A stretch of 64,000 nucleotides of DNA from Sulfurirhabdus autotrophica (GTDB taxonomy: Bacteria; Pseudomonadota; Gammaproteobacteria; Burkholderiales; SMCO01): assembly GCF_004346685.1 (NCBI RefSeq), contig NZ_SMCO01000001.1:744001-808000 (forward strand), given 5' to 3'. The stretch's first letter is position 1, and each line of letters begins with the position of its first letter. A program made the translations under genes and the position numbers. The notes under the pieces were generated by a model that was not told the DNA's origin, did no database searches, and saw only the letters and a list, made by a program, of their open reading frames with translations. This document shows, one piece after another, positions 34,757 through 50,134 of this stretch.

Positions 34757-35695
34757 ATGGATTCAAAGGGAAATCAGAAACTTCTCGACACAATTGATGC
34801 CAGAACCAAGCTTGCAGGGTCCAATAAAATGGAGATTCTGTTATTTTCCTTGGGAAACAACGAAGTTTTTGGCATCAATGTTTTTAAAGTACGTGAAGTG
34901 AGTCAAACGCCGCAAATCACAAAGACGCCCTATATGCCAGTTGGCGTTGAGGGGGTCATTTCCTTGCGTGGAAATATTATTCCAGTGATTGCACTCGCGA
35001 AATTTATCGAGGTTGAAGATGCGCCAGAAGATACCGGCCAGACAATGATTGTGACTGAGTACAGCCGTCGAACTCAAGGCTTTCTAGTGCACTCTGTTGA
35101 TCGAATCATCCGGGTAGACTGGGACAAGGTCAAACCACCAGAATCCATGCTTGCTGGAAATGACAGCATGATTACGGCAATTACCGAACTCCCCGATGGA
35201 AAACTCGTATCCATTCTGGATGTGGAACAGATACTTGCCAATGCCATTGGGGAAGCACCTATTCCTGAGCTGGTCCCCATTGAATCCAAAACTGAAATTG
35301 TTGTGTTCTTTGTAGATGACTCAGCTGTGGCACGTAAAGAAATTGTTATGGTGCTGGATAAACTAGGGGTAAAACACCAACTTGCGAATAATGGACTCGA
35401 AGGCTGGGAGAAACTGCAGGGGCTTGCAAATCGTGCCCAGCAAGATGGCTTTGATCTTCATGATCAGATCAAACTGATTCTTGTAGATGCAGAAATGCCA
35501 GAAATGGATGGGTATGTACTTACCAAGAACATCAAATCTGATCGCCGCTTCAGTAATATCCCGGTGGTCATGCATTCATCACTCTCTTCTGAAGCGAATA
35601 AAGCGATGGGAAAAGCCGTTGGAGTAGATGCCTATGTGGGCAAGTTTGACCCCATCGCGCTTTCAGAAACTTTACGGCCATATTTAAGCAGATAA
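34757..35695 (+). CDS. cheV: Chemotaxis coupling protein CheV (second copy)
   Basis: 312-residue paralogue of the preceding CheV: CheW domain with FGINVFKVREVSQ and VEGVISLRGNIIPVIAL, then a receiver with FFVDDSA and D244 in LVDAEMPEMDGY. The shared openings (LDTIDARTKLAGSNKMEILLF) and receiver ends show a tandem duplication with divergence. It lies 37 bases after the first copy, with GAGGGAAAC ahead of the start. There is no separate cheW in this window, so these may supply the coupling role. Confidence 0.95.
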   Translation: MDSKGNQKLLDTIDARTKLAGSNKMEILLFSLGNNEVFGINVFKVREVSQTPQITKTPYMPVGVEGVISLRGNIIPVIALAKFIEVEDAPEDTGQTMIVTEYSRRTQGFLVHSVDRIIRVDWDKVKPPESMLAGNDSMITAITELPDGKLVSILDVEQILANAIGEAPIPELVPIESKTEIVVFFVDDSAVARKEIVMVLDKLGVKHQLANNGLEGWEKLQGLANRAQQDGFDLHDQIKLILVDAEMPEMDGYVLTKNIKSDRRFSNIPVVMHSSLSSEANKAMGKAVGVDAYVGKFDPIALSETLRPYLSR

Positions 35696-40412: not shown

Positions 40413-40865
40413 TCAGAGAAACTCAGGTGAAATAACTGCCCGAAGGATAGTTTGCTTTTCACCTTGGCGTATACGGTTGCTTAGCCACCAGATACTTCCC
40501 TTTTTCATGCTCCAGTCTGCTTCCTCTCCTGAAAGAAGAAATGCAGCAGCACGTGCCAGGGTGGGCTGATGCCCAACAATAATGACTGCTCCTTTGGCTG
40601 ATGGCCAACCCGCCGCCGCCAGAACAGTAGCAACATCCGCACCTGGCGCCAACTCTTTTCGTATTTCATACTTACTGGTGAGCGCATCCGCTGTTTGCAA
40701 GGCTCGCTTTGCCGGACTAACCAGAACGCTTAAATTATTCGGCAACCTGGGTTTCAGCCACTGCGCGACCAATTGAGCATGCTTCTCGCCTTTCTCTGTC
40801 AGCTTTCTGGTTGTATCAGGAAATCCATCCTCTGCATCGGCATGACGCCATAAAATCAAATCCAT
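40413..40865 (-). CDS. sixA: Phosphohistidine phosphatase SixA
   Basis: Histidine-phosphatase superfamily enzyme that removes phosphate from phosphohistidine of Hpt-type or PTS proteins. The catalytic LILWRHADAED holds the RHG-like motif (RHA), with the second histidine in IIVGHQPTLA. The ATG at 40865 is preferred: GGAG lies six bases upstream and MDLILWRH is the usual beginning, giving 150 residues. It is convergent with the EAL-HDOD gene and upstream of nothing visible on its strand. Its substrate could include the nearby CheA Hpt domain, but that is speculation. Confidence 0.92.
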   Translation of the reverse strand: MDLILWRHADAEDGFPDTTRKLTEKGEKHAQLVAQWLKPRLPNNLSVLVSPAKRALQTADALTSKYEIRKELAPGADVATVLAAAGWPSAKGAVIIVGHQPTLARAAAFLLSGEEADWSMKKGSIWWLSNRIRQGEKQTILRAVISPEFL

Positions 40866-41004
40866 CCACTGCTCCATCATATTATCTCGCTTAGCTTAAC
40901 AAACGCTGGTTACAGTTTTATAACAAACCTGCAAAAGACTACTTCTTCAAAAATCCATCCAGCAAATTAAGGATAGTAAAACTTGCCGCACTATTCAGCT
41001 AACG

Positions 41005-41625
41005 TTATACCGATTTCAACGACTTTGATTTAGCAAAAAGTGCGTAGCCACGCTCAGCCTTGCTTTTATCTTCCGTTTGCAGAGTGACTGTTTTATTCAA
41101 AAGTTCAGCCAGTTCAAACAAAGCCTCAGGCTCACCCGATTTCAGCTCCAGCTCTACTTCACAAATAGGTTCAGTCAAATTGCTCACCTGTATTTCACCG
41201 ACATCCAATGCCAACTCAACCACCCCTCTTGGCAATTCAAGTAACCATGTTGTACGCCAGAAATTTGTCTCAAACACAGGCATCATGGCATCTTGGACTT
41301 CTGGGGTAAAGACACTGTACCAAGGTGATTGGGCAAGTTTTTCAAAGTCCGGCTTTTCGCCTTCAACTTCAACCTCCCACTCATTTCGCTGATGCAACCC
41401 ACCTTCCACCTTCCCCCCACCTTTCACAGTTTGAATCCAGAGGGAATCAACCAGACGCATTCGAAATGCCATTTTCTGCTTTACCAAAGTCAAATCTGGC
41501 GTATCAAGGTAAATATTCCGCAATGATTTCCTCTCCGAATTTATACCGTTCAGCAGCGGGTGATTCATCAGGGCAGGAATATCAGCTTTATTTATCAGTA
41601 ATTTCAATTCAATTTCAGTATGCAT
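41005..41625 (-). CDS. CYTH-domain protein (triphosphate tunnel metalloenzyme)
   Basis: 206-residue CYTH protein. It opens with the signature EIELKLL and has alternating charged strands (KMAFRMRLVD, WEVEVEGEKP, ICEVELELKSG) lining the tunnel. Related E. coli YgiF hydrolyses inorganic triphosphate, but it also has a CHAD domain that is absent here. The start at 41625 (MHTEIELKLL) fits the family; a start at 41643 is possible. It is divergent from ppk1 with overlapping upstream regions, and it ends the sixA-side gap. A polyphosphate or triphosphate role fits the context. Confidence 0.88.
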   Translation of the reverse strand: MHTEIELKLLINKADIPALMNHPLLNGINSERKSLRNIYLDTPDLTLVKQKMAFRMRLVDSLWIQTVKGGGKVEGGLHQRNEWEVEVEGEKPDFEKLAQSPWYSVFTPEVQDAMMPVFETNFWRTTWLLELPRGVVELALDVGEIQVSNLTEPICEVELELKSGEPEALFELAELLNKTVTLQTEDKSKAERGYALFAKSKSLKSV

Positions 41626-41667
41626 AAGATAGATAGATTCCATGGTTTTGAGGTAGCATTGTTAGTT

Positions 41668-43737
41668 ATGACTGAATTTAAAGCACCAGAATACTATATT
41701 AATCGAGAACTCAGCCTGCTGGCTTTTAATGACAGGGTTCTGGCACAGGCTGAAGATACCAACACTCCTGTACTGGAACGGCTACGTTTTTTGTGTATTT
41801 TCAGTAGCAATCTGGATGAGTTCTTTGAAATCCGGGTAGCTGGCCTGAAGGAAAAAATAAAACTGGGTAGCGTCGCAAAGAGCCCGGATGGCATGCCCCC
41901 TCAACAGACTTACCAGCTTGTCAGCAAACGAACTCATGAGCTCATAGCCCGACAATACCGCCAGTTCAACGATCTGATCCTACCCGAGCTGGCACGTCAT
42001 GGTGTGCGATTTTTACGGCGCACCCATTGGGATGAAACCCAAAGCGAATGGATTAAATCCTATTTTTTCCGTGAGGTGATGCCGGTCCTGACCCCTATTG
42101 GACTTGACCCATCCCATCCATTTCCCCGTGTATTGAACAAAAGCCTGAATTTTGCCGTGGAACTGGAAGGGAAAGACGCTTTTGGCCGCAACTCGGGCAC
42201 CGCAATCGTTCAGGCGCCCCGCGCCCTCCCCCGCGTTATCCGTTTACCCAATGATATTGCAGGCTGTGAATACGGCTTTGTGTTTCTCTCATCCATTCTT
42301 CACGCTCATGTAAACGAGCTTTTCTCCGGCATGAATGTCAATGGCTGCTATCAATTCCGTGTTACGCGTAATAGTGATCTATTTGTTGATGAAGAAGAGA
42401 TCAAAAACCTCCGGCTAGCTTTACAGGGTGAATTACCGCATCGACATTATGGGGATGCAGTGCGCTTGGAAGTTGCCGACAATTGTTCTGAAAAAATGGC
42501 CGGTTTTTTACTGGAACAATTCAATCTGACAAAAAACGATCTGTTTCGGGTAAACGGCCCGGTTAACTTAGTCAGATTGATGCAAATCCCGGATGCAGTT
42601 GATTTACCATTTCTGAAGTTTCCGCCATTTGTTCAAGAGATTCCAGCCACTGTATCGAAACATCCTGACATGTTTCAGACAATACGCAAGAGCGATATCC
42701 TGCTACATCATCCATTTCAATCATTCAAACCGGTAGTCGATTTTATTCAACAGGCATCCCGAGACCCGCAAGTCGTTGCCATCAAGCAAACTGTATATAG
42801 AACCAGCACGGATTCAGCCTTGATGGGTGCCCTGATCCAGGCAGCGCAAAGCGGCAAAGATGTGACGGTTGTCGTTGAACTTCTGGCAAGGTTTGATGAA
42901 GAAGCCAATATCAACTGGGCAGCCAAACTCGAAGATGCCGGCGCTCATGTCATTTACGGTGTAGTCGGTTACAAAACTCACGCCAAAATGATATTGGTTG
43001 TCAGAAGAGAAGAGCAAGGATTAAGACGCTACGTACATTTGGGCACAGGTAATTATCATCCGAGAACATCCAAACTCTATACGGACTTTGGACTTTTCAC
43101 CTGTTCAGAAGAAATCGGCAGTGATGTGAACGATATTTTCGCCCAACTCACCGGACTAGGAAAAGCAAGTCAACTCAGATACTTATGGCAAGCACCCTTC
43201 ACTTTACATCCGAAACTGATCAAAGCTATACACAACGAAATTGAACATGCCCAAAAAGGCCGCCCTGCTGCCATTATAGCCAAGATGAATTCATTGGTTG
43301 AACCACAAATCATCCAGGCTCTGTACGAAGCATCTTGTGCAGGGGTCAAAATTGATTTAATTGTGCGCGGAGTATGCGCTCTGCGTCCTGGCATACCCGG
43401 CGTTTCTGAAAACATTCGTGTGCGATCCATCATTGGCAGATTTCTGGAACATACCCGCATATTTTATTTTCGTAACAATGGAAAACAAGATGTCTATTTA
43501 TCCAGTGCCGACTGGATGGACCGAAATTTTTTCCGCCGGATTGAAGCCTGCTTCCCCATATTGAATCAGCGCCTTAAAAGACGTGTTATTGCCGAAGGGC
43601 TAAGAACATACTTGAGAGATAACTTACAGGCTTGGGAAATGGACCCAGATGGACGTTATTATCGCAAAACCCCCAATCGCGCCCAACCCTTCAGTGCACA
43701 GGAAAGTCTATTAGATAAATTTTCTGACGAAAATTAG
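41668..43737 (+). CDS. ppk1: Polyphosphate kinase 1
   Basis: Reversibly polymerises ATP gamma-phosphate into polyphosphate. The product is 689 residues, as in E. coli Ppk. The N-terminal domain opens with YYINRELSLLAFNDRVL. The autophosphorylated histidine is H438 (GYKTHAKMILVVRR), equivalent to E. coli H435. Further motifs are YVHLGTGNYHPRTSKLYTDF and the C-terminal LSSADWMDRNFFRRIE. The start MTEFKAPEYY is chosen from family alignment. ppx lies 5 kb downstream on the other strand. Confidence 0.96.
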   Translation: MTEFKAPEYYINRELSLLAFNDRVLAQAEDTNTPVLERLRFLCIFSSNLDEFFEIRVAGLKEKIKLGSVAKSPDGMPPQQTYQLVSKRTHELIARQYRQFNDLILPELARHGVRFLRRTHWDETQSEWIKSYFFREVMPVLTPIGLDPSHPFPRVLNKSLNFAVELEGKDAFGRNSGTAIVQAPRALPRVIRLPNDIAGCEYGFVFLSSILHAHVNELFSGMNVNGCYQFRVTRNSDLFVDEEEIKNLRLALQGELPHRHYGDAVRLEVADNCSEKMAGFLLEQFNLTKNDLFRVNGPVNLVRLMQIPDAVDLPFLKFPPFVQEIPATVSKHPDMFQTIRKSDILLHHPFQSFKPVVDFIQQASRDPQVVAIKQTVYRTSTDSALMGALIQAAQSGKDVTVVVELLARFDEEANINWAAKLEDAGAHVIYGVVGYKTHAKMILVVRREEQGLRRYVHLGTGNYHPRTSKLYTDFGLFTCSEEIGSDVNDIFAQLTGLGKASQLRYLWQAPFTLHPKLIKAIHNEIEHAQKGRPAAIIAKMNSLVEPQIIQALYEASCAGVKIDLIVRGVCALRPGIPGVSENIRVRSIIGRFLEHTRIFYFRNNGKQDVYLSSADWMDRNFFRRIEACFPILNQRLKRRVIAEGLRTYLRDNLQAWEMDPDGRYYRKTPNRAQPFSAQESLLDKFSDEN

Positions 43738-43808
43738 TCAGCTATCTGTTACTCAATAATCAATAAATCTGTATTTAATTCATGTAATTGCTTCACGAGG
43801 ATAATATT

Positions 43809-44672
43809 ATGCGTCTGGATGACGAACGCACAAGTGACAATGTAGAGGACCGACGCGGTGCAGGTGGTAGCGGCATCAGTTCTGGAGGACTTGGTATTGG
43901 CGGCATTCTACTGGCATTGGCTGGCAGCTATTTTTTTGGTATAAATCCATCCACTTTGCTGGGGCTTGTCTCAAACGTAACCCAACCATCCCCCCGGTCA
44001 GCACAGTCACACAAACCACCAGCCAATGATGAGATGGCTATTTTTGTCTCAAAAGTATTAGCCGATACAGAGGATACTTGGCACACGGTTTTTGCTGAAG
44101 CAGGTAAAGAATATAAAGACCCAAAACTTGTCTTGTTTACAGGTTCAACCCCTACCGCATGTGGCACTGGCGACACAGCAATGGGACCGTTCTATTGCTC
44201 GTTAGACCAAAAGGTTTATATTGATCTTGCTTTCTACCGTGACTTGAAAGAACGTTATCATGCGCCGGGGGAATTTGCCGAGGCTTACGTGATCGCACAT
44301 GAAGTAGGCCACCATGTACAAAAGTTGCTGGGCACTTCAGACAGAGTTCATGCAGCCCAGCAACAAGCTGGCAGCAAGGTCAAGGTAAATGCACTGTCTG
44401 TTCGACTTGAACTGCAGGCTGACTGCTATGCGGGCGTTTGGGGCAACCGTGCCAATACCATGAAACATATTATTGAACCGGGTGAGATTGAACAGGCGCT
44501 GACAGCAGCTACGGCCATCGGTGACGACCGCTTACAGAAGCAGGCTCGCGGATACGCTGTACCCGATACGTTTACCCATGGATCTTCTGAGCAACGGGTG
44601 CGTTGGTTCAAACGTGGTATTGAAAGCGGAGATCCAAAACAATGCAATACTTTCAAAACACGAGAATTATAA
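43809..44672 (+). CDS. ypfJ: YpfJ-type putative zinc metallopeptidase
   Basis: 287-residue membrane-anchored protein. The N-terminus MRLDDERTSDNVEDRRG and a following Gly-rich transmembrane segment (about 25-45) are typical of YpfJ. The zinc site is H164-E165-x2-H168 in IAHEVGHHVQ, followed by the third-ligand region (LELQADCYAGVW). A GAGGA Shine-Dalgarno eight bases ahead supports the ATG. The substrate is unknown. Confidence 0.9.
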   Translation: MRLDDERTSDNVEDRRGAGGSGISSGGLGIGGILLALAGSYFFGINPSTLLGLVSNVTQPSPRSAQSHKPPANDEMAIFVSKVLADTEDTWHTVFAEAGKEYKDPKLVLFTGSTPTACGTGDTAMGPFYCSLDQKVYIDLAFYRDLKERYHAPGEFAEAYVIAHEVGHHVQKLLGTSDRVHAAQQQAGSKVKVNALSVRLELQADCYAGVWGNRANTMKHIIEPGEIEQALTAATAIGDDRLQKQARGYAVPDTFTHGSSEQRVRWFKRGIESGDPKQCNTFKTREL

Positions 44673-44714
44673 ATTTACTTAAGTTTGAAAAAAGTAATCT
44701 ACCAAGAAATCTTT

Positions 44715-46031
44715 ATGAAAAAATCATTTAGCAACAAATCTCGCAGGGAAATGCTCATTGTCGGTTTGCCAGCACTTGCGCTTATTATTGCTCTGTTCTG
44801 GATTGCGTCTATGTTTGTACAACCAGCGCCACCCAAACTGCTCTATATGTCCACGGGGTCAGAAGGTGGGGCGTATCACGGTTATGCCAAACGATATAAA
44901 GAAATTCTGGCTCGCCATGGCATAACGCTGGAACTTCAAACATCATCCGGCGCCCTTGAAAACCTGCAGCGCCTGAAAGATGTCAACACTCACTTTACAA
45001 TCGGTTTTGTTCAGGGCGGAACCGCTACGGCTAAAGATGGTGAAAATTTAATGTCTTTGGGCAGCATGTACTATGAACCCTTATGGGTGTTCTATAGAAG
45101 TAAAGCACCTTTGGACCGGATTGTTCAGCTACAAGGCAAAAAACTCGCGGTTGGTGTGGAAGGAAGTGGCACACGCAAGCTTGCATTGCAAATTCTGGGG
45201 GCCAATAACATGGGGAAAGGGCTTGAAAGCCTTGCGCCTCTGGCTGGAGATGCAGCCGCAGATGCTCTTCAGAAAGAACTCGTGGATGCGGTTTTTATCA
45301 TTACAGGTGCTGATTCAGTTGCGGTACATAAAATGCTGGATATGGAGGGAGTTCGCCTGATGAACTTCGCACAAGCCGGTGCGTATGTAAAACGATTCCC
45401 ATTTCTTTCGCAGGTCACGTTGCCACGTGGCGTAGTTGATTTGGTACGGGATATCCCCGGGCAGGACATAACACTGATCGCAACCACTGCCAATCTGATA
45501 GCTCGTGACGCTATTCATCCGGCCTTGGTTAGCTTATTGGCACAAGCTGCAACTGAAGTACATGGCGAGACAGGTATGTTTCAGCAGGCAAGGGAGTTTC
45601 CTGCTGTTAAGGACTTAACGTTCGAGGTTAGCAAAGATGCCGAGCGCTACTACAAATCCGGCCCCCCATTCCTACAGCGCTATTTGCCATTTTGGGCCGC
45701 TGTACTGGTAGATCGTATTTTGGTGATGGCATTGCCGTTACTAGTGCTTATCCCTATTTTGCGAGCCATTCCCGCTCTTTATAAATGGCGCATCACTTCA
45801 CGTATTTATCGATGGTATGGTGAACTGTCTGCACTGGAGAGCGAAATTAAAAGGCAATACGACCCAACCCGTTACGCTGATTATCTGGCGCAAATTGACA
45901 ACATGGAAGATCGAGCCAACAACCGCCCGATTCCTGTTGCCTATACTCACCTTCGTTATACACTGCGCGAACACATCAATCTGGTTCGGGCTTCTCTGGC
46001 GCGAAAAAGGGCGGAAGAAAGACCAGTCTGA
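44715..46031 (+). CDS. TAXI-family solute-binding protein with membrane anchors
   Basis: TRAP-associated extracytoplasmic immunogenic (TAXI) family protein of 438 residues. TM1 is about 13-34. The periplasmic binding domain opens with LLYMSTGSEGGAYHGYAKRYKEIL and contains GVEGSGTRKLALQIL. A second hydrophobic segment (about 320-350, LVDRILVMALPLLVLIPIL) is followed by a charged cytoplasmic tail. No TRAP permease gene is beside it, so it may be a sensor or an orphan. ATG at 44715 is chosen; a TTG at 44685 is unlikely. Confidence 0.88.
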   Translation: MKKSFSNKSRREMLIVGLPALALIIALFWIASMFVQPAPPKLLYMSTGSEGGAYHGYAKRYKEILARHGITLELQTSSGALENLQRLKDVNTHFTIGFVQGGTATAKDGENLMSLGSMYYEPLWVFYRSKAPLDRIVQLQGKKLAVGVEGSGTRKLALQILGANNMGKGLESLAPLAGDAAADALQKELVDAVFIITGADSVAVHKMLDMEGVRLMNFAQAGAYVKRFPFLSQVTLPRGVVDLVRDIPGQDITLIATTANLIARDAIHPALVSLLAQAATEVHGETGMFQQAREFPAVKDLTFEVSKDAERYYKSGPPFLQRYLPFWAAVLVDRILVMALPLLVLIPILRAIPALYKWRITSRIYRWYGELSALESEIKRQYDPTRYADYLAQIDNMEDRANNRPIPVAYTHLRYTLREHINLVRASLARKRAEERPV

Positions 46032-46365
46032 CACAACGATTGATCCACAATGATGCCCAATAAAAATGACTTGGCGAATTTAATTATCGTATGGGCGCTA
46101 TCATAAACAGGCGCTCTATCTACCGTGAATGGCAGTCCCAAAGATAGTGAGCAACAGACTTTCATCGGGGGAGTTACAGAAAGATTTTTTCTACTGGTTC
46201 AGCGCAACGTTAGAAATTATTTGCCACAAACCAGAGTATCAAGCAAAAACCCATTGCTCCAAGTTAGCGTAGATACTGCTCATTCAATACCCCCTTTACT
46301 CCAGTCATCAAACTGTCACGTTTCGGCGCTAATATGCACTGCATTTACATTTCCAAAAGAAGTTT
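46032..46365 (+). other. Intergenic region ahead of the small CxxC gene
   Basis: 334 bases without a convincing gene. Its notable content is the Pho-box promoter at 46302-46335. An open frame at 46125-46433 runs across that promoter and has no family features, so I do not call it. Confidence 0.6.
46302..46335 (+). promoter_or_regulatory. Pho box with correctly spaced -10
   Basis: CAGTCAT-CAAA-CTGTCAC (46302-46319) fits the two-repeat Pho box (CTGTCAT, 4 bases, CTGTCAY) at 16 of 18 positions by my count. After ten bases comes TAATAT (46330-46335). In E. coli phoA the box-to--10 distance is also ten bases. PhoB activation under phosphate limitation is inferred. The start point should be near 46342. 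Confidence 0.7.
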
Positions 46366-46596
46366 ATGCTTATTTGCGAAAGATGCCTCCATCAGAAAAT
46401 TTGGCTAACCGCCAACAGCAAGTCACACTTTAACGAAAAGTTGACTATCAAACATTTCGTTACTTGCCATACATGTAAGCAACTCGCCTTATGCACTATT
46501 TACTCTGGAAAACTCACCAGGAAGAAAAATATGGATTTAAGCGTTCACTCGCGAAATCTCGCACATGAATATAAATTTCCTATTGAAACCATATAG
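46366..46596 (+). CDS. Possible small CxxC (zinc-ribbon-like) protein
   Basis: A 76-residue reading that begins about 24 bases behind the predicted PhoB start point, with an AGAAG sequence just ahead of the ATG. It carries CERC (4-7) and CHTC (34-37), the spacing of a small zinc ribbon, and is basic overall. It ends 48 bases ahead of the EAL-CBS-GGDEF gene, so the two could share a transcript. No homologue is recognised. The alternative is that this is only the long leader of the downstream gene, perhaps with a short frame starting at 46531 behind AGGAAG. Confidence 0.45.
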   Translation: MLICERCLHQKIWLTANSKSHFNEKLTIKHFVTCHTCKQLALCTIYSGKLTRKKNMDLSVHSRNLAHEYKFPIETI

Positions 46597-46644
46597 CTAC
46601 AAATAAAATAAACTATTTTTACCAAGTTCAATTCAGAGTAACCA

Positions 46645-48483
46645 ATGTTAAACCAGATAAAAAACTTCCCTAGCAATGACATGCGTGACCATTTAAAAGA
46701 AATAATTGAAAACCGTCGTCTCACTGCTGTTTTCCAACCTATCATCTCAATGCGAGATGGCCATATTATTGGCTTTGAAGGATTGATACGCGGTCCTTCT
46801 GACAGTCTTCTCCATTCCCCCATCAATCTATTCAAAGCAGCAAATCTGAATAAACTTTCTGTTGTAATGGAACAGCTCTGTCGGCAAGTTGTTCTTGAAA
46901 CGTTTGTTAAGCTTGGGCTGATTGGCAAACTATTTCTTAACGTTAGTCCGGAGTGCTTATTAAAGCCAGATTTCAAACAAGGTGAGACGCTGTGCTATAT
47001 GCAAAATTTAGGCATTAATCCAGACCAGGTCATCATCGAACTTACTGAAAGCCAGCCAACATTTGATTACAATCTGTTACGAGAAGCGACCACACATTAT
47101 AGAGAAATGGGGTTTGAAATAGCCATAGACGATCTGGGCGAAGGATTTTCCGGATTACGCCTGTGGTCAGAGATTCGCCCTGATTATGTCAAAATCGACA
47201 AACACTTCATTCAAAACATTAATCAGGACCCGCTGAAACTACAATTTGTCCAATCCATTCAAAAAATTGCTGAAAATGCTGCCGCTCGCGTGATTGCAGA
47301 AGGTATTGAAACCCAGGCTGAATTGATGATCATCAAGGACTTGGGCATTGATTTCGGGCAAGGCTATCATATTGCACGCCCTAGCAGTACGCCATCTGTC
47401 ATTGCCCCAATCGAAATCAGCAAAGCATTGTGCTTGCCGGGCATTACGGTCTACCCGCAATCTAAGAGCCTGACGCAAAATACCATATCAGCAAGCCGAC
47501 TGCTCATTGAAGTACCTGTCGTTACACCAGACACTATGAATGAAGAGGTTTATAAAATTTTCAGCGAATCCCCAGCGCTTCAAGCCATTCCGGTAGTAAA
47601 AAATGGTACGCCTGTGGGCATGATCAACCGTCATATGTTGATTGACTCATTTTCCAAGCTTTACTCTCGCGAGTTATATGGCAAAAAAGCATGCTCCAAA
47701 TTCATGGATAGCGCACCCATGATAGTTGACAAGGATATCAGCATTCAGGCACTCAGCCACCTCATGGTAGCAAGCGAGCGCCGTTATCTTTCTGATGGGT
47801 TCATTATTACCAGCAAAGGGGAATACATCGGCATCGGTACTGGTCATGACCTGATGCGGGAAATTACCCAAATGCAGATAACCGCCGCACGTTACGCCAA
47901 TCCACTTACGCTGCTACCCGGGAATGTGCCTATTAATGAACATATAGACAGGCTGATACATAGTCAGGCATCGTTTGTTGTCTGCTATTGTGATCTGGAT
48001 AACTTCAAGCCATTCAATGACAAATATGGTTACCGCAGAGGCGACGATATCATTCAGTTGACAGGAAAAACGCTCTCCAATATCTGCAACCCGGATTGTG
48101 ACTTTATTGGCCACATCGGTGGGGATGATTTTTTCATTCTGTTTCAAAGTGCTGATTGGGAAGAACGTTGCCAGGATGCACTTTCTGAATTTAGTAAACT
48201 CATCGCCCCATTTTTTTCAGCCAGCGATTTTGCCCAAGGCGGGTTCATCACCGCAGACCGAAAAAACGAACAGGTTTTTCAGCCTTTAACTACGCTTTCA
48301 ATTGGTGCCGTGCGTATAGAGCCAGGGATATTTAACTCACACAATGAAGTTTCATCAGTAGCAGCAGAGGCAAAAAAACGTGCAAAAGCTATTCATGGTA
48401 ATAGTTTGTTTATTGACCGCCGCCATTATTGCAATGAAACCAGGGACTGCCATTCCACAGAAGAGTGTGCATTGATAACTTAA
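46645..48483 (+). CDS. EAL-CBS-GGDEF c-di-GMP signalling protein
   Basis: 612-residue soluble protein with an unusual order. The EAL domain (about 15-260) is intact at most catalytic spots: E45 in EGL, LNVSPE, ELTES, AIDDLGEGFSGL, VKIDKHF, AEGIETQ, GQGY. Two CBS-like repeats (about 285-420) follow, then a GGDEF domain (about 430-590) whose signature is GGDDF (492-496) with no upstream RxxD inhibitory site. It is probably a phosphodiesterase with a degenerate, GTP-sensing cyclase domain and nucleotide-binding CBS input. It lies behind the Pho-type promoter. Confidence 0.9.
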   Translation: MLNQIKNFPSNDMRDHLKEIIENRRLTAVFQPIISMRDGHIIGFEGLIRGPSDSLLHSPINLFKAANLNKLSVVMEQLCRQVVLETFVKLGLIGKLFLNVSPECLLKPDFKQGETLCYMQNLGINPDQVIIELTESQPTFDYNLLREATTHYREMGFEIAIDDLGEGFSGLRLWSEIRPDYVKIDKHFIQNINQDPLKLQFVQSIQKIAENAAARVIAEGIETQAELMIIKDLGIDFGQGYHIARPSSTPSVIAPIEISKALCLPGITVYPQSKSLTQNTISASRLLIEVPVVTPDTMNEEVYKIFSESPALQAIPVVKNGTPVGMINRHMLIDSFSKLYSRELYGKKACSKFMDSAPMIVDKDISIQALSHLMVASERRYLSDGFIITSKGEYIGIGTGHDLMREITQMQITAARYANPLTLLPGNVPINEHIDRLIHSQASFVVCYCDLDNFKPFNDKYGYRRGDDIIQLTGKTLSNICNPDCDFIGHIGGDDFFILFQSADWEERCQDALSEFSKLIAPFFSASDFAQGGFITADRKNEQVFQPLTTLSIGAVRIEPGIFNSHNEVSSVAAEAKKRAKAIHGNSLFIDRRHYCNETRDCHSTEECALIT

Positions 48484-48640: not shown

Positions 48641-50134
48641 CTAATCCCCTTTACTATTGGAAATACTGAAACTCACTCCAATCGATTTCCATTCTTTGAT
48701 TTCAGATTGCAATGCATTGTCTGTCAAAGGGTTTTGTTCCAACCAGCCTTTTTCAAGTTTTAATCGATACTCGTTATCACGCAGCTTCAATTGTATTTTA
48801 GGCACTTCAATATCAGTACGGCTTCGATAAAACAGCACAGCCAGGCGCAATACCAGAATAGCAAGCCAATAAGCGGGCTTATCAGCAATTCCTGGCACTT
48901 TGGATAATGAACCACGTTGTGCCCTTACCAGTAAACCGAGCTGGGATTGTTCCAGTTTTGAAAACCCTGGCATGTCTGCATGTTCAAGAATATAGGCGGA
49001 ATGTTTATGATATCCACTATGGGCGATAGAAATACCGATTTCGTGAAAGTCTGCTGCCCATAAAAGATGTTGCTTCAGTTCTTCTATATCTTCCTCAAGC
49101 CCTTGAGCGACTTCGACAAAAAGTGATGAGGAAAAATTTGCTACGCGAAATGCCTGACTGGGATCAACATGGTAGCGACGCATAAACTGCTTTACAGTCG
49201 CATCACGCATATCATGATGATGGAAGCGACCTAACAGATCGTATAACACACCTTCACGAAGGGCAGCACCTGCAATGTTCATTTGCTGAATACCCAGCTC
49301 TGAAAATATCGCTGACATGATTGCCAGCCCGCCTGGTAAAACCGGAATACGATCCTGTTTCATCCCCTGCAAATCCAGCTTTTTGCAATCTCCCGCTTTC
49401 AACAAAACAGTTCGGAGTTGTGCCAGCCCTTCAGCCGTGATACCCACTTTGCTCCACCCATTTTGCTCCAGCAAATCAGCCAACGCACGAGCCGTACCCG
49501 ATGAACCTATTGCTTCCTGCCAGTGCCCGCTGGAAAACTTGGAACGAATGGATAGCAGTTCCATTTTTGCGGCCATTTCAGCATTTTGCATGGCATCTTT
49601 AGTAATCTTTCCCTCAGGAAAAAAGCGCAAACTGTAACTGACACAGCCCATGTACAGGCTTTCCATCTTGTAGGGTTCTAATCCCTCGCCAATAATACAT
49701 TCAGTCGATCCACCACCGATATCTACTACCAGCCTGTGGTTCTGAGAGGCAGGCACGCTGTGGGCTACCCCTAAATAAATCAGCCTTGCCTCTTCCCGCC
49801 CGGCAATGACTTCAATCTGAAAGCCCAGCGCTTCTTCAGCTTTCGTTAAAAAAGCTGGCGCATTTTTGGCAACACGCAGTGTATTGGTTCCTACCACCCT
49901 TACGGCATGAATAGGCAACCCTCTCAGTCGCTCACCAAAACGCTTCAGGCATGACAGTGCACGAGCCTGAGAGTCTTCATCAAGAAATTTTTCTGGTGTT
50001 AAACCTGCACCAAGACGTACCGTTTCTTTCAGAGAATCCAGGGGATATATTTGATCATCCACCACGCGCGCAACCTGCAAACGGAAGCTGTTTGACCCCA
50101 AATCCACGGCGGCGACAATATCATATTCTTCCAC
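48641..50134 (-). CDS. ppx: Exopolyphosphatase Ppx/GppA
   Basis: Ppx/GppA phosphatase of 497 residues that degrades polyphosphate (and possibly pppGpp). The ASKHA-fold ATP-binding-type motifs are AAVDLGSNSFRLQVARV, LVVDIGGGSTECIIG and SSGTARALADLL. The C-terminal HD-like helical domain contains AADFHEIGISIAHSGYHKHSAYIL. Start is a GTG. It is convergent with the EAL-CBS-GGDEF gene and is the functional opposite of ppk1. No Pho box is seen ahead of it. Confidence 0.95.
   Translation of the reverse strand: MEEYDIVAAVDLGSNSFRLQVARVVDDQIYPLDSLKETVRLGAGLTPEKFLDEDSQARALSCLKRFGERLRGLPIHAVRVVGTNTLRVAKNAPAFLTKAEEALGFQIEVIAGREEARLIYLGVAHSVPASQNHRLVVDIGGGSTECIIGEGLEPYKMESLYMGCVSYSLRFFPEGKITKDAMQNAEMAAKMELLSIRSKFSSGHWQEAIGSSGTARALADLLEQNGWSKVGITAEGLAQLRTVLLKAGDCKKLDLQGMKQDRIPVLPGGLAIMSAIFSELGIQQMNIAGAALREGVLYDLLGRFHHHDMRDATVKQFMRRYHVDPSQAFRVANFSSSLFVEVAQGLEEDIEELKQHLLWAADFHEIGISIAHSGYHKHSAYILEHADMPGFSKLEQSQLGLLVRAQRGSLSKVPGIADKPAYWLAILVLRLAVLFYRSRTDIEVPKIQLKLRDNEYRLKLEKGWLEQNPLTDNALQSEIKEWKSIGVSFSISNSKGD

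Follow-up and report, generated by a model that had tools for sequence, protein, structure and literature searches.

Genomic organization of the locus

The window, a 64,000-nt stretch of a Sulfurirhabdus autotrophica contig (NZ_SMCO01000001.1), carries a gene for a protein with EAL, CBS and GGDEF domains, preceded by a predicted PhoB-type promoter (Table 1). The earlier note had placed such a gene behind this promoter, and the domain assignments were confirmed with Pfam. It had also described the locus as flanked by genes for making and degrading polyphosphate. This holds for ppx, which adjoins the gene, and not for ppk1, which lies two genes away. The intervening zinc-peptidase and TAXI-type genes were apparently inserted in the lineage of the window, because in three related loci (L223, L241 and L244) the distances leave no gene-sized gap between ppk1, the RapA-type gene and ppx. 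An overlapping open reading frame is present at 46125-46433.

Table 1. Features at and around the EAL-CBS-GGDEF locus (window coordinates)
Feature	Position	Strand	Basis
ppk1 (polyphosphate kinase), linked, non-adjacent to the EAL-CBS-GGDEF gene	41620-43737	+	
Neutral zinc-peptidase gene and TAXI-type solute-receptor gene (C-terminal extension), between ppk1 and the EAL-CBS-GGDEF gene	43788-46031	+	
Putative Pho box, two direct repeats CAGTCAT-nnnn-CTGTCAC	46302-46319	+	16/18 to consensus; matrix score 14.1
Putative -10 element TAATAT	46330-46335	+	10 nt after box; start predicted near 46342
Predicted untranslated leader, ~300 nt	46342-46644	+	From predicted start
EAL-CBS-CBS-GGDEF gene, RapA-type, 612 aa	46645-48483	+	ORF, Pfam, homology, predicted structure
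EAL domain, residues 16-246, catalytic residues kept	46690-47382	+	Pfam, alignments
CBS pair, residues ~281-336 and ~349-405	47485-47859	+	Repeat 1, Pfam; repeat 2, predicted secondary structure only
GGDDF motif of GGDEF domain, residues 492-496	48118-48132	+	Sequence; both D in 189/191 rows
ppx (exopolyphosphatase / Ppx-GppA family), convergent with and directly downstream of the EAL-CBS-GGDEF gene	48641-50134	-	

The encoded protein is of the RapA/PA3258 type

Pfam assigns an EAL domain to residues 16-246, a CBS domain to 289-335 and a GGDEF domain to 422-514. Structure prediction gave a confident model (mean pLDDT 88.2, pTM 0.65) with two CBS-like repeats in its secondary structure. In a structure comparison the EAL part matched solved EAL structures at Z scores as high as 28.8, with an rmsd of 1.9 over 233 residues; the best 50 matches were all EAL-type, a result that bears on the EAL part alone. 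Among 52 aligned members of the family, EAL and GGDEF domains were found in all 52 and CBS in 48 at an E-value of 0.01.

Residues E45, N99, E132, D162, D163, K183, E219 and Q239, which we take to be the metal and substrate contacts of the EAL domain, are invariant in these 52 sequences, and the EAL catalytic residues are kept in more than 95% of the rows of a larger alignment of 191 orthologs. In nearly all orthologs the sequence at the GGDEF motif is GGDDF. Because each aspartate is kept in 189 of the 191 rows, GGDDF is a conserved trait rather than a sign of decay.

Family membership was examined against a P. aeruginosa record (L354) in which a RapA/PA3258-type gene adjoins a carboxy-terminal processing peptidase gene; the L354 protein is presumably PA3258. 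The window protein is homologous to it over its full length, colinear and 40% identical over 579 aligned columns, and has the same EAL-CBS-GGDEF domain order. When the L354 protein was used as a one-way query in the window's genome, the window protein was the best match by 365 bits (E 2.7e-138), the next match (1.5e-27) covering the EAL part only.

Three P. aeruginosa plasmid records (hits H5-H7) carry a RapA-type gene; in H5 a carboxy-terminal processing peptidase gene is its neighbour, a sign that the plasmid may carry a piece of chromosome. Counterparts of LapD and LapG, through which the window protein might act on adhesion, were looked for in the window's genome. On C6, a C93 peptidase gene adjoining an HD-domain gene reaches a score of 89.9, where the LapG cut-off is 320. 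One LapD_MoxY_N protein is encoded on C7, and its gene is not adjacent to the C93 peptidase gene.

In the available parts of the literature, PA3258 is an EAL-CBS-GGDEF protein with RapA as its homologue (PMC12900916) and is elsewhere termed a putative RapA orthologue (PMC9394441). RapA of P. fluorescens, the relative that has been studied best, is described there as a Pho-regulated c-di-GMP phosphodiesterase that is expressed at low phosphate via PhoB and depletes c-di-GMP (PMC3032545). Phosphate control could also apply to a protein whose main function is that of a cyclase, or of an effector binding c-di-GMP/GTP, rather than that of a phosphodiesterase. The near-invariance of GGDDF is in line with that reading, as is PA3258, which showed signs of residual cyclase activity when over-expressed with its EAL domain disabled, according to the accessible text (PMC12900916), so that net activity could vary. 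The invariant EAL catalytic residues and the depletion of c-di-GMP by RapA argue against it, and we consider a mainly cyclase or effector role unlikely. Phosphodiesterase activity is the preferred assignment, and c-di-GMP breakdown the likely direction of the effect.

A predicted PhoB-type promoter precedes the gene

The box reported in the earlier note, CAGTCATCAAACTGTCAC, agrees with the consensus CTGTCATAWAWCTGTCAY at 16 of 18 positions. It consists of two 7-bp direct repeats 11 bp apart, close to the CTGTCAT consensus, and stands in the place of a -35 element. The ten-base distance to the -10 element that had been claimed was likewise borne out: GTTTCGGCGC (10 nt) separates the box from TAATAT. 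A generic sigma-70 scan does not list a promoter at 46302-46335, which fits a promoter that lacks a -35 element.

To score the box, a matrix was derived solely from the 300-nt upstream regions of 30 pstS genes. The training sites themselves score 13.7-25.1, and the box falls near the bottom of that range. When the 613-nt intergenic region was shuffled 20,000 times with its dinucleotides preserved, 98 shuffles contained a site scoring as well, and just 2 contained one that also had TAnnnT at offset 10.

Since the start is predicted near 46342, the leader would span about 300 nt, compared with 40-200 nt in most relatives. No Rfam family scored above threshold in the leader; the sub-threshold match was to a eukaryotic snoRNA family and was taken as chance. 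No repeats were found in it, nor any clear conserved block when it was aligned with three close relatives.

Box and composite sites across the genome

The genome (3.86 Mb, 59 contigs) encodes both PhoB and PhoR. Apart from CAGTCATCAAACTGTCAC, it contains no site within one mismatch of CTGTCATNNNNCTGTCAY. By arithmetic with uniform composition about two such sites are expected per genome, so the box alone is weak genome-wide evidence and not decisive. At up to three mismatches there are 506 sites, against 366 for the backward pattern, and genome-wide consensus counting was therefore rejected as sole proof.

The composite pattern, a box with a -10 element at the right distance, gave six genome sites at up to one mismatch. 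The two perfect ones lie before pstS and before phoB; the other four lie before the EAL-CBS-GGDEF gene, sixA and an olsB-like gene, and near a transporter gene. Because the composite pattern read backward also gives four sites at up to one mismatch, the genome by itself cannot decide the matter at that level.

Two of these sites, and one box-like site in the window, are described in more detail here. The one before sixA (40413-40880, minus strand) is a second PhoB-type promoter in the window; it lies at 40909-40926 (minus strand; TTGTTATAAAACTGTAAC, 15/18), scores 16.6 with the matrix and has TAAGCT at offset 10. SixA is a phosphohistidine phosphatase, and its gene adjoins a CYTH gene and ppk1. 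The site directly before the olsB-like ornithine N-acyltransferase gene (L348 1494-1533; G000:C16:80143-80175, minus strand) would fit a remodelling of lipids when phosphate is low. A box-like site at 35160-35177 (minus strand, matrix score 17.0) has no -10 element at offset 10.

The direct repeat could in principle be used by another OmpR/PhoB-type regulator, and the genome holds many of these: the PhoB model has 68 matches, one of them above the cut-off. The matrix that detects the box was built from pstS upstreams alone, and the two perfect composite sites are those of pstS and phoB. Use by a regulator other than PhoB is accordingly judged very improbable, and PhoB is retained as the predicted regulator.

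The promoter recurs in orthologs

Orthologous loci were gathered from a first source, in which 80 loci were kept from at least 572 relatives, and from further genomes, where matches at E ≤ 1e-80 were found in 38 of 120 relatives, 132 of 399 members of the order and 66 of 398 of the phylum; stretches were fetched for part of these matches. After removal of proteins below 400 residues, upstream regions below 250 nt and near-identical rows, 191 non-redundant loci remained, including the window's own gene and, for some genomes, two copies.

Within 250 nt upstream, a matrix score of at least 14 was reached in 53 of the 191 ortholog loci, compared with 20 of 991 regions that precede other genes at these loci, and a backward matrix in the same scan hit 1 of 191. 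With a composite requirement (score of at least 8 plus TAnnnT at offset 10), 88 of 191 orthologs and 29 of 991 neighbour-gene upstreams were positive (odds ratio 28); the window's own box, beyond 250 nt, counts as a miss in both 250-nt scans. Eight of the 29 control hits lie before ppk1, phoB or pstS. When the search was extended to 350 nt (600 nt for the window, which then became a hit), 93 of 191 loci carried the composite, compared with about 0.2% of mononucleotide shuffles (n=950).

The position of the -10 element provides further evidence. It played no part in matrix training, and was found at exactly offset 10 in 76 of the 102 best ortholog sites, with none at offsets 6-9 or 11-14; pstS upstreams have TAnnnT at offset 10 in 27 of 29 cases. 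One ortholog, L047, has a perfect box (CTGTCATATATCTGTCAC).

The distribution is uneven. About half of the 191 loci have no composite promoter at the threshold used. Among close relatives with ppk1 adjoining, L223, L224, L227, L231, L233, L241 and L244 carry it with scores of 10.4-17.1; the close relative L229 has none, and L225 and L226 are weak. On the tree the promoter label clusters: it changes 46 times, whereas shuffled labels change 63.9 times on average and 51 times at the least. It is also patchy, and therefore either gain and loss are frequent or the threshold is too strict. These sequence comparisons indicate that the phosphate switch is probably kept in many related bacteria.

A different arrangement was found in L354 and 11 loci of one gammaproteobacterial family, whose proteins are 67-80% identical to L354. 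These have upstream tandem repeats of the type GTCATnnnnCAGTCATnnnnCTGTCGTGAAAT, the first two repeats being variable, which are Pho-like half-sites. None of the 8 loci scored among the 11 passed the composite -10 requirement.

Coincidence can be weighed against these data. If the box were fortuitous, the RapA-family gene would here be outside PhoB control, and its transcription would begin at a different promoter closer to the start codon; the long leader, the two or so one-mismatch box-like sites expected per genome and the four backward composite sites would all agree with this. The rarity of box and -10 together in intergenic shuffles and the recurrence of the promoter in orthologs, including the seven close relatives named above, speak against coincidence, which we hold to be quite improbable. 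It is the ortholog comparison, not the box alone, that makes the promoter call strong.

Linkage to phosphate genes

At least one of ppk1, ppx, pstS, pstC, phoB and phoR occurs in the flanks of 25 of the 191 loci, flanks that vary in length and are often short. Restricting the count to the 153 loci whose flanks reach 2.5 kb or more on each side gives ppk1 at 11, pstS at 7, phoB at 7 and ppx at 4; the loci linked to phosphate genes are related, so these counts are not independent.

Proposed role of the locus

From sequence comparison and analogy, the locus is probably a Pho-regulon gene for a RapA-type c-di-GMP phosphodiesterase. At low phosphate, phosphorylated PhoB would bind 46302-46319, where the box would stand in for the -35 element, and RNA polymerase would be recruited to the -10 at 46330-46335. 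The EAL domain would then degrade c-di-GMP, its activity probably tuned by the CBS pair and the GGDDF domain. If P. fluorescens is a guide, cells starved of phosphate would be expected to attach less to surfaces and to disperse more. The proposal that phosphate starvation alters c-di-GMP turnover, made in the earlier note, is thus supported as a prediction by the ortholog promoters (88/191 against 29/991) and by the RapA precedent as available (PMC3032545).

A broader idea is offered as speculation, and we think it doubtful as a whole. The RapA-type phosphodiesterase may be an old and recurrent Pho member in Burkholderiales and several gammaproteobacteria, repeatedly placed beside ppk1, ppx, pst or phoB, such that a single module links phosphate starvation with polyphosphate turnover and the breakdown of c-di-GMP. 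The enzyme might then be gated by the CBS pair, which would read an adenylate state partly set by polyphosphate metabolism.

The link from Pho to c-di-GMP is not new in kind, RapA being the direct precedent. In a literature search lacking most subscription papers, no report was found that describes a Pho box upstream of an EAL-CBS-GGDEF gene in any genus but Pseudomonas. As far as that search reached, the breadth of Pho control and the phosphate-gene linkage in Burkholderiales are new. The findings would carry the phosphate-to-c-di-GMP link beyond the single Pseudomonas in which it was established, to a large set of environmental bacteria, and predict that many Burkholderiales lower c-di-GMP at low phosphate and hence leave surfaces. 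They also single out a family of CBS-containing enzymes in which GGDDF is almost invariant.

Comparison with known systems

The theme is shared with Vibrio cholerae, where PhoB lowers biofilm and modifies the c-di-GMP pool; the available portion of that account (PMC4741415) does not mention an EAL-CBS-GGDEF protein. DdpB (BB2957) of Bordetella and RMET_RS24295 of Cupriavidus metallidurans are, like the window protein, cytosolic EAL, CBS and GGDEF proteins, but are described in the accessible parts of the sources (PMC12805831, PMC6629876) without activity or phosphate control. DdpB has the same GGDDF according to those parts, and ESL where the window protein has EGL.

The closest likeness is to RapA of P. 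fluorescens Pf0-1 and PA3258, although Pseudomonas belongs to another class. The neighbour there is a carboxy-terminal peptidase gene, whereas phosphate genes adjoin or lie near the window locus, and the long leader is particular to the latter. Pseudomonas upstreams have three tandem half-sites without TAnnnT at offset 10; the window has two, with TAnnnT. GGDDF is shared with the RapA/PA3258-type protein of P. aeruginosa, which is the protein, rather than RapA, used in the sequence comparison. The order EAL-CBS-GGDEF is shared with PA3258 (available text of PMC12900916), and a c-di-GMP phosphodiesterase under PhoB, as described for RapA in the accessible part of PMC3032545, is what is predicted for the window protein.
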